From Thermococcus piezophilus (GTDB lineage Archaea > Methanobacteriota_B > Thermococci > Thermococcales > Thermococcaceae): a stretch of DNA of 64,000 nt. Position 1 is the first letter of the stretch. Every line of letters begins with the position of its first letter. This document shows positions 26,745 through 49,251 of this stretch, piece after piece. The notes beneath the pieces were generated by a model. It was given only the letters and a program-made list of their open reading frames with translations. It ran no database searches and had not been told where the DNA came from. The position numbers and the translations under genes were made by a program. Location of the stretch: contig NZ_CP015520.1 of the NCBI RefSeq assembly GCF_001647085.1, positions 434,001 to 498,000 of the forward strand, in the 5' to 3' direction.

Positions 26745-29772
<3,028 letters not shown>

Positions 29773-31592: not shown

Positions 31593-31800
31593 TTACCCCC
31601 GAGGGGTCCGCCTTTCGGCGTTTCCTCGGGAGCGCACCTCTTGTGACCCAGGCTGGAGGGCGGGGTTCATCTTGGGTGCTTTGCACCCTTTCCCCCCGAC
31701 GCCGCCGTCTGGCGCCTGGGTGTTCCGCGCCCTGTTTGGGCGCTCCACCCAATAGGGGCGAACTCCAACAGTGAAAAATTTTTGCAAAACCTTTGAGGGG
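31593..31800 (-). other. GC-rich structured 5' leader of the rRNA transcript
   Basis: About 200 bases of strongly GC-rich DNA between the rRNA promoter and the 16S processing stem, contrasting with the AT-rich DNA upstream. Hairpins are evident: CCCGAGG ... CCTCGGG enclosing a GCC-GAAA-GGC stem (31598-31630) and GGGTGC-TTT-GCACCC (31674-31688). GC content of this level in a hyperthermophile usually marks stable RNA. I found no SRP RNA or RNase P RNA hallmarks, so it is either leader structure or an unrecognised RNA. Confidence 0.5.
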
Positions 31801-46275: not shown

Positions 46276-46806
46276 TCAGAACTTCACCCACTCAATCTTA
46301 TAATACACGACATCGTTGTCCTCATCAACGATCGCCATGACCATGTTCTTCCTGACGCCATGGGCAACTCTCACGCGAGCCGTTATATCGTTAGGGCTGA
46401 AGCGGAGGTTCTCCGGGACGACCCATATCAGCCACTGGGAGTGCTCGTCCATTCCGCGCCGGTAAACCCTGAAGTGGGAGCCGAACTTAAGGGCCGACTT
46501 GACGACATAACCCCTGTCGCGCAGGTCCTTATAAACGAGGTACTTGATATCGAACTGGTCGTCTTTTTTCCGGCCGAGTTCAAAGAGCTCCTCAAAGGAG
46601 AGCTCTTTATCGCCGTCAAGAACCTTTATCTTACCCCTCTCCATCAGGTATGCCGCCTCTATGAGCGAAAGAAAGAGCTTCCCGTTGATGACCTCACCGA
46701 AATAGCGCTTATTGTGGAGCTGGTTTATTGCCTTCTCCCTCTCGCTGAAGACCCTGTCACCACTGAGCTTAAACTCTATCGGCCCCTTCAATTCCTCCCA
46801 CCCCAC
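46276..46806 (-). CDS. endA: tRNA-splicing endonuclease
   Basis: 176 residues, the homodimeric/short EndA form. The catalytic Tyr-His-Lys triad is visible: Tyr in KYLVYKDLRDRGYVV, His in FGSHFRVYRRG and Lys in AHGVRKNMVMAIVD. Cuts the bulge-helix-bulge motif of intron-containing tRNA and of pre-rRNA, such as the processing stems around 16S and 23S in this window. Overlaps the 3' end of rimI, so co-transcribed. Confidence 0.93.
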   Translation of the reverse strand: MGWEELKGPIEFKLSGDRVFSEREKAINQLHNKRYFGEVINGKLFLSLIEAAYLMERGKIKVLDGDKELSFEELFELGRKKDDQFDIKYLVYKDLRDRGYVVKSALKFGSHFRVYRRGMDEHSQWLIWVVPENLRFSPNDITARVRVAHGVRKNMVMAIVDEDNDVVYYKIEWVKF

Positions 46807-47291
46807 TCGTCGGTCGGCATGAGCATGTAGTATGCATCCTCGCCGTCGGCGTAGTAGCCTATTATCCGCTTAATCCTCCTGAAGCCGAAGCGCTCGTAGA
46901 GCTTTATCGCCTTTTCGTTGCTCACGCGGACTTCAAGCCCTATGTAGCGCGCGCCCTTCTTTATTAACCTTTCTATCGCCTCGCTCAGAAGGGTGGAACC
47001 TATGCCGTTGCCCCGATACGCTGGATCAACCGCTATGCTCATTATGTGGCCCTCCAAATCAGGCCTGAGATAGGCCATCACGTAACCTATAACCTTTCCG
47101 TGGTACTCTGCGACGAGAAATGTGTCGGGATTGTTCTCGAGGAATACTAAAAAGACACCCCTCGGGTACTGCTCACGGAAGGAAATCCGCTCTATCCTCA
47201 CTATGTCAGGCATGTCGAAGAGCTTGGCGGGCCTTATGACCACCCTTGATAGGGGGATTCTACCGCCCAGCTCCGTTGTGAAGACGCTCAT
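46788..47291 (-). CDS. rimI: GNAT N-terminal acetyltransferase (RimI/Ard1-like)
   Basis: 167 residues. GNAT core: IRPAKLFDMPDIVRIE, the acetyl-CoA loop IAVDPAYRGNGIGSTLL and VSNEKAIKLYERFGF. Archaeal members acetylate N-termini of many proteins, including Alba and ribosomal proteins. The TATA box at 47311-47322 predicts a leaderless mRNA beginning at ATG 47291. Confidence 0.88.
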   Translation of the reverse strand: MSVFTTELGGRIPLSRVVIRPAKLFDMPDIVRIERISFREQYPRGVFLVFLENNPDTFLVAEYHGKVIGYVMAYLRPDLEGHIMSIAVDPAYRGNGIGSTLLSEAIERLIKKGARYIGLEVRVSNEKAIKLYERFGFRRIKRIIGYYADGEDAYYMLMPTDEWGGRN

Positions 47292-47310: not shown

Positions 47311-47322
47311 AGCTTTTAAGGC
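47311..47322 (-). promoter_or_regulatory. TATA box of rimI-endA
   Basis: Minus strand GCCTTAAAAGCT, positioned for a leaderless start at 47291. Confidence 0.55.
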
Positions 47323-47349
47323 TTGAGGGAACTCTAAGCGGTGGCCACC

Positions 47350-47413
47350 CGGGCGTGATGAGCACTCTCGAACCTGACCCAGGGATGATGACCGGATTCC
47401 TGGCTGATTGCCG
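47350..47413 (+). ncRNA. Box C/D methylation-guide sRNA
   Basis: All four boxes are present with canonical spacing: C GTGATGA (47355-47361), D' CTGA (47374-47377), C' ATGATGA (47385-47391) and D CTGA (47404-47407). Each guide is 12 bases, the archaeal norm. The D guide CCGGATTCCTGG matches 23S rRNA of this window: the sequence complementary to 27363-27374 pairs over 10 Watson-Crick bases plus one G-U, predicting 2'-O-methylation of the G opposite plus-strand position 27370. The D' guide GCACTCTCGAAC has no convincing partner in the rRNAs or tRNAs seen here. Confidence 0.88.
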
Positions 47414-47490: not shown

Positions 47491-49251
47491 ATGCGGATTA
47501 AAGAAGAGGCCGTTGGAATAGTGACTGGTGAAGCGACCGTCAACTCATTCCAGTTTTATGCTCAGCCCGATGCCAATTTAAAGTTCGGAGACTTCGTCGT
47601 TGCCAAGCTCTGTAAAGAAGCGAAGGAGAGAAACTGCCGCTGGAGCGATGATGTCGAGTGGGTCATTGGAACGATAAGGGGACTGAAGAACATAAACTGG
47701 CTCCTCAGCGAAGGAAAAAGCACCTACCACTCCCTCCAACTGGACATATGGGAGTACGGTGAAAGCATAGGCGAGAACGAGGCTCTGATAGTGAACGTCC
47801 GCGTGCTTGGAAGGGTCATCATAAACGGTGAGCGAGCGGAGATTGTCCCCAACCGCGTGCCGATACCGAACGGCAACACCGTCTACAGGGCCAGCTCCGA
47901 GCTCCTTAAGGCAATCTACTACGGCGGCCCTGGATTCATCGAGGTCGGGAACCTTCTCCTGCGCGAGGACGTTCCCATATACCTCAACGCCGACGAGCTC
48001 GTCTCGAGGCACTTCGCAGTTTTAGCGGTTACTGGTGCGGGCAAATCAAACACTGTGGCGGTTCTCATAGGGGAGATAACCAACAGGCTCCGCGGAACGG
48101 TTGTGGTTCTTGATCCCCACGGCGACTACGTAAAGCTAAGGCTTCCTGAAACGGGTAGAAAATACGTCAAGCTAATAGAAGCCAAAATAATGCCCGAGGA
48201 AATGGACAGCGAGGAGCTGGCTGACCTAATCGAGATAGCGAGCAACGCGACAATACAGAGGGAGTTTTTAGCTAAAGCCTGGGAGACCGTCAAGCACGAA
48301 AACCCAACTCTCGGCGGAAGGGAGCTCATAGAGGCCCTTATGAGCACGATAACCGAGTGGATAATGAACCGCGCTGCTTATTTCTGGGACGAGGGGAAGG
48401 AGAGCTACATACCCGAGGAACTCAAGAGCGAGAGGATCGAAACGCTAAGGGGTGTCGTTTACAGGATAAGGCGCTTCCTGAGAAATTACGGCTCCCTACT
48501 AACAAGTGAGGATTTGATAGCCCAGATAGAGCCAGGAAAGGCCAACGTGATTGACCTCGGCCCGCTGGATGAGGGCCAAATGAAGGTTGTAGTTGGTAAA
48601 CTCCTCGAGAAGATATTCGAAGCAAGGGTCGACTACGAACAGGCCAGAAAGAACATCCTCCGCCTGAGAGAAGACCTGAAAGAGAACCCCAACTCAAAGA
48701 CGGCGGAGGAAATTAAGAAGTTCGAGAGCACGATGAGGGCGATAGAGAACAAGAGCCCGGCTTTGGCTGAGCCTATACTCATCATAGTGGAGGAAGCGCA
48801 TATCTTCGCACCTCATGGTGAACACAACGACGCGGTGAGGATACTGAGCAGAATAGCGAGAGAGGGCAGGAAGTTCGGGGTGGGCCTTGGGATAGTAAGC
48901 CAGAGACCCAACAAGCTCAACGAGGATGTCCTCAGCCAGACCAACACAAAGATAATCCTCCGCATCGTCAATCCAAAGGATCAGGACTACGTCCTGAGGG
49001 CGAGCGAGCAGCTGAGTTCCGATTTGCTCGGAGATATAGCTTCCCTCGGCAAGGGTGAGGCCGTTATAGTAGGCCAAGCCATAAGCCTCCCGGCGCTCGT
49101 CAAGATACACAACTTCAAGGCCCTCGGTGGTGGCTATGGCGGGGAAGACATAGGCGTTGTAAGCCGCTGGAAAGAAAGGGCAGAGCGTGAGAGGCTCGAG
49201 AGGGAGAAAGAAAAGCTGTACGAAGAAGAGGAGATTGAGATAGACTTCTGA
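47491..49251 (+). CDS. herA: HerA hexameric DNA helicase/translocase
   Basis: 586 residues from ATG 47491 ([17 protein letters not shown]), preceded by AGGTGGT. N-terminal HAS barrel, then a FtsK/VirB4-like ATPase: Walker [14 protein letters not shown], Walker [12 protein letters not shown], arginine finger region [13 protein letters not shown]. HerA and NurA act with Mre11-Rad50 to resect double-strand breaks and create 3' overhangs for RadA. First gene of the four-gene repair operon. Confidence 0.96.

Follow-up and report, generated by a model that had tools for sequence, protein, structure and literature searches.

An sR5-family box C/D sRNA gene of Thermococcus piezophilus with two guides predicted to direct methylation at two nearby sites of 23S rRNA

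Box C/D sRNAs of archaea act in RNPs with L7Ae, Nop5 and fibrillarin. Within these, fibrillarin methylates the ribose of whichever nucleotide pairs with the fifth guide position counted from box D or box D' (N+5). Here, we describe one such sRNA gene and the predicted rRNA targets of both of its guides in the window, a stretch of 64,000 nucleotides from Thermococcus piezophilus (contig NZ_CP015520.1, positions 434,001 to 498,000) that also holds an rRNA operon. The gene lies between a minus-strand gene for a GNAT acetyltransferase (46788-47291) upstream and, downstream on the plus strand, herA (47491-49251) and an Mre11-like gene. Its core, read directly from the sequence, extends from the C box (47355-47361) through the D box (47404-47407) and carries the archaeal box order of C (RUGAUGA), D' (CUGA), C' (UGAUGA) and D (CUGA), invariant across 18 sequences, with a short linker between boxes D' and C' (Table 1). 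Both guides are 12 nt long, within the range of about 10-13 nt for rRNA-complementary guides, and form duplexes of 11 and 10 bp that run through the N+5 nucleotide. The segment 47352-47408 scores 47.2 bits with the Rfam model for sR5 (RF01304), whose gathering score is 40, and in the Rfam alignment the boxes and the D guide agree with the sR5 consensus; a model of our own, which includes this very sequence, scores it at 67.8 bits. Judged by sequence, the feature is thus a real box C/D sRNA, as the original prediction held in pointing to its ideal boxes and spacings, and is the Thermococcus copy of the already described family sR5. Its secondary structure is unremarkable (z = -0.5), and a fibrillarin gene is found in the genome (PF01269, 333.9 bits).

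Two palindromes lie upstream of the sRNA, in the gap that separates it from the divergently oriented GNAT gene. The TATA-like CTTTTAAG could be a two-way promoter shared by both genes. The second, GGTGGCCACC, stands about where the transcript should start and could form a 5' hairpin or serve as an operator; its GTGGCC/GGCCAC core is present in 21 of 36 distinct upstream sequences, and it is no genome-wide repeat (four places in the genome). Here and at Thermococcus loci L076-L105 the core of this palindrome is GTGGCCAC, about 10 bases 5' of box C; the arms are as long as nine bases, and a change in one arm is matched in the other.

Table 1. Coordinates of the sRNA gene, its upstream elements and its predicted 23S rRNA targets, in positions of the window.
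Feature	Position	Strand	Basis or remark
D-guide target in 23S (H84 region, presumed)	27364..27374	-	predicted Gm 27370 = 23S position 2402
D'-guide target, 3' strand of H81	27396..27405	-	predicted Gm 27403 = 23S position 2369, E. coli 2276
TATA-like palindrome CTTTTAAG	47313..47320	.	sequence; similar place in most Thermococcus loci
Palindrome GGTGGCCACC just 5' of box C	47340..47349	.	GTGGCC/GGCCAC core
sR5-family box C/D sRNA (RF01304)	47352..47408	+	Rfam match
Box C GTGATGA	47355..47361	+	sequence; TGATGA invariant in alignment A2
D' guide GCACTCTCGAAC, 12 nt	47362..47373	+	pairs with 23S 27396-27405; co-varies with H81 across genera
Box D' CTGA	47374..47377	+	sequence; invariant in alignment
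Box C' ATGATGA	47385..47391	+	sequence; TGATGA invariant in A2
D guide CCGGATTCCTGG, 12 nt	47392..47403	+	pairs with 23S 27364-27374
Box D CTGA	47404..47407	+	sequence; invariant in alignment

The best duplex of the D guide in 16S and 23S rRNA comprises 11 consecutive base pairs, with a single G-U pair at the end adjacent to box D. Its N+5 nucleotide faces 27370, which predicts a 2'-O-methylated G at G2402 of this 23S (E. coli 2309), in a region that we take to be H84 from general E. coli numbering; the homologous nucleotide of P. furiosus is the second G of UCAGGAAUCCG. The original prediction had already named both the 11-base pairing with one G-U and a methylated G opposite 27370, and these stand, the latter as the N+5 nucleotide of the duplex and with methylation itself being predicted, but its range of 27363-27373 is off by one base: the true range is 27364-27374, and 27363 would place a C-C mismatch against the guide. 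The duplex stands out only moderately from chance (34 of 600 composition-shuffled guides score at least as high somewhere in 16S and 23S), and its support is conservation. The core of the D guide is kept as an exact pattern in 59 of 94 genomes of the family and in 0 of 21 class relatives outside it, and across family loci both the guide and its 23S target are nearly constant.

The original prediction was wrong in stating that the D' guide has no target in the window; this guide pairs with the same 23S rRNA. Its best match in 16S and 23S is a run of 10 consecutive base pairs with target UAUCGAGGGUGC at 27396-27405, including one G-U pair, and guide positions 1-2 beside box D' are unpaired in genus g1, whose D' guide form is the one found here. 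Opposite the fifth guide position counted from box D' lies 27403, which predicts a methylated G at G2369 of the 23S (E. coli 2276), the homologue of which in P. furiosus is the G after GGUAUC. The D' target lies about 20 bases from the D target, and the two predicted methylation sites are 33 nt apart. Anywhere in 16S and 23S, 44 of 600 shuffles reach the score of this duplex; within 100 nt of the D site, just 119 of 20,000 shuffled D' guides do so. Other targets of the D' guide in 16S or elsewhere in 23S were rejected (second-best score of 21.5 against 24.5, and not kept across genera), as was a 7-bp match at 27353-27359 that misses the N+5 position. A tRNA T-loop, which the GTTCGA of the guide resembles, was likewise dropped, with the near-matches falling in no tRNA gene.

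Comparison among the Thermococcaceae provides the main evidence for the D' assignment. The loci compared came from 61 genomes within the genus and another 33 in the family. The D' guide takes a different form by genus, with GCACTCTCGAAC in g1, GCGCCATCGATG in g12, GCGCTTCCGATC in g13 and GTGCCCTTGATC in g14, H81 of the 23S rRNA likewise varies among these genera, and in nearly every case the guide fits the H81 of its own genome in the same register; two g12 genomes (G103 and G104) have a 13-nt D' guide that needs a one-base bulge. For four D' sequences of different genera the best match in the whole rRNA operon is the same, and the H81 site is the top match in six representative genomes of g12, g13 and g14 with different D' guides. 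Among 14 distinct combinations of guide and target, pairs form in 88.7% of cells, compared with 36-52% in slid registers, and three pairs have changed on both sides (compensatory). In six aligned operons, including that of this genome, the mean D' score is 23.75 at the H81 site versus 13.4 at the next best column. The co-variation score exceeds those of all 500 shuffles, a control that overstates independence because the guides of different genera are homologous, and in a swap matrix some foreign guide/target combinations are roughly on a par with native ones; the register result is independent of both caveats. In g1, g12, g13 and g14 the predicted targets of sR5 members are the same two 23S sites. 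Evidence of this kind, in which a guide co-varies with a variable rRNA helix, outweighs a match in a single genome. The D' guide of G094 (g11) does not fit H81. At its locus (L108) the D guide is kept, but the D' guide is an unrelated 11-nt sequence, TGGCCACTATC; the place in the rRNA operon that it matches best, position 1447 on the minus strand of L155, probably belongs to 16S rRNA.

The sRNA is very likely a double-guide member of sR5 whose D guide directs methylation of G2402 and whose D' guide directs methylation of G2369 in the same 23S rRNA. From the observed boxes, spacing, family membership, pairing, co-variation and conservation, we infer that the RNA is transcribed in this species, assembles into an RNP and directs methylation of both nucleotides, as for an ordinary dual-guide sRNA. 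L7Ae would bind the C/D and C'/D' motifs and be joined by Nop5 and fibrillarin; the D guide would then pair with 27364-27374 for 2'-O-methylation of G2402, and the D' guide with 27396-27405 for methylation of G2369. Both guides of an Rfam sRNA family are in this way assigned to two 23S nucleotides.

That no gene lies here, and that boxes and pairings of this kind came together by chance, is scarcely credible: short motifs do arise by chance and each duplex alone is no more than mildly unusual, but the Rfam match is over the cut-off, the boxes are invariant, the guides are conserved in dozens of genomes and the location is conserved. It is also highly improbable that the D guide alone acts on rRNA while the D' guide is an orphan or has its target in some other RNA, for instance a tRNA or mRNA. 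The lack of pairs at D' positions 1-2 in this genus, the one G-U pair and the one family genome with a misfitting guide would agree with an orphan, whereas the D' guide follows the changes of H81 across genera, with three pairs changed on both sides. The suggestion in the original prediction that the D' guide may act on another RNA is hence not needed, and the genome-wide search for GTTCGAGAGTGC-like targets that it proposed returned only the gene itself and eight places with one mismatch, none of them in a tRNA gene.

An unlikely reading makes the guides mainly an RNA chaperone, which would keep H81 and H84 from closing while the 50S subunit folds, methylation being a secondary role. The two targets do occupy neighbouring predicted hairpins at a distance of 33 nt, and such roles have been proposed for dual guides (PMC4644070, PMC7994747); against it, both duplexes keep the proper N+5 register and the C/D and C'/D' motifs are intact, features required for methylation and not for chaperoning. 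A broader proposal, which we regard as speculative and rather doubtful, is that the sRNA is a bridging guide, which by pairing with both H81 and H84 at once orders the folding of this part of domain V; its repeated losses in lineages would then show where heat or assembly makes the sRNA needed, and its D' guide would have kept pace, from genus to genus, with an rRNA helix that drifts.

In most Thermococcus genomes the sRNA gene stands between a GNAT gene and herA. The GNAT neighbour is kept in most Thermococcus loci and herA in many; at g12 loci neither neighbour was found, with one exception for GNAT. Beside the GNAT gene the sRNA is absent in 13 Thermococcus genomes (loci L173-L185), and in three of these (L174, L180 and L181) the GNAT gene still adjoins a herA-like start. 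In several complete genomes lacking it, our own model found no convincing copy elsewhere, in a search that at its first stage scored 150 candidates per genome and that a divergent copy could escape. These complete Thermococcus genomes have an identical or almost identical 23S target stretch, and because the sRNA is absent there while its target is unchanged, the guide appears dispensable. Modification directed by sR5 is not universal, the sRNA being missing at its usual locus in several complete Thermococcus genomes. We interpret the absences as losses in particular lineages, which accords with the turnover of guides known in archaea (PMC7994747); sR5 offers an example of how a guide can be lost while its rRNA target stays the same.

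The sRNA described here shares its box layout with the sR5 family (RF01304), its D guide is close to the Rfam consensus, and g12 members, with D' guides resembling that consensus, address the same two 23S sites; the differences are the D' guide sequence, which varies by genus and follows changes in H81, and the locus, which differs in g12. Archaeal double-guide box C/D sRNAs with close rRNA targets (PMC7994747; PMC4644070) likewise have two 12-nt guides, two nearby targets and the N+5 rule, with no notable difference from this one. Published sR5 targets were not found in the open-access literature, a scope outside which the original Pyrococcus paper (Gaspin 2000) probably falls. Public RiboMeth-seq data for P. 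furiosus are available under GSE153501 (PMC7758197). The T. kodakarensis transcriptome includes 54 reported C/D sRNAs (PMC4247193). Elsewhere in the window, an H/ACA RNA of family Pab19 (31642-31743, minus strand) lies just upstream of 16S, within the rRNA leader, and a similar arrangement has been reported in T. kodakarensis (PMC4247193).
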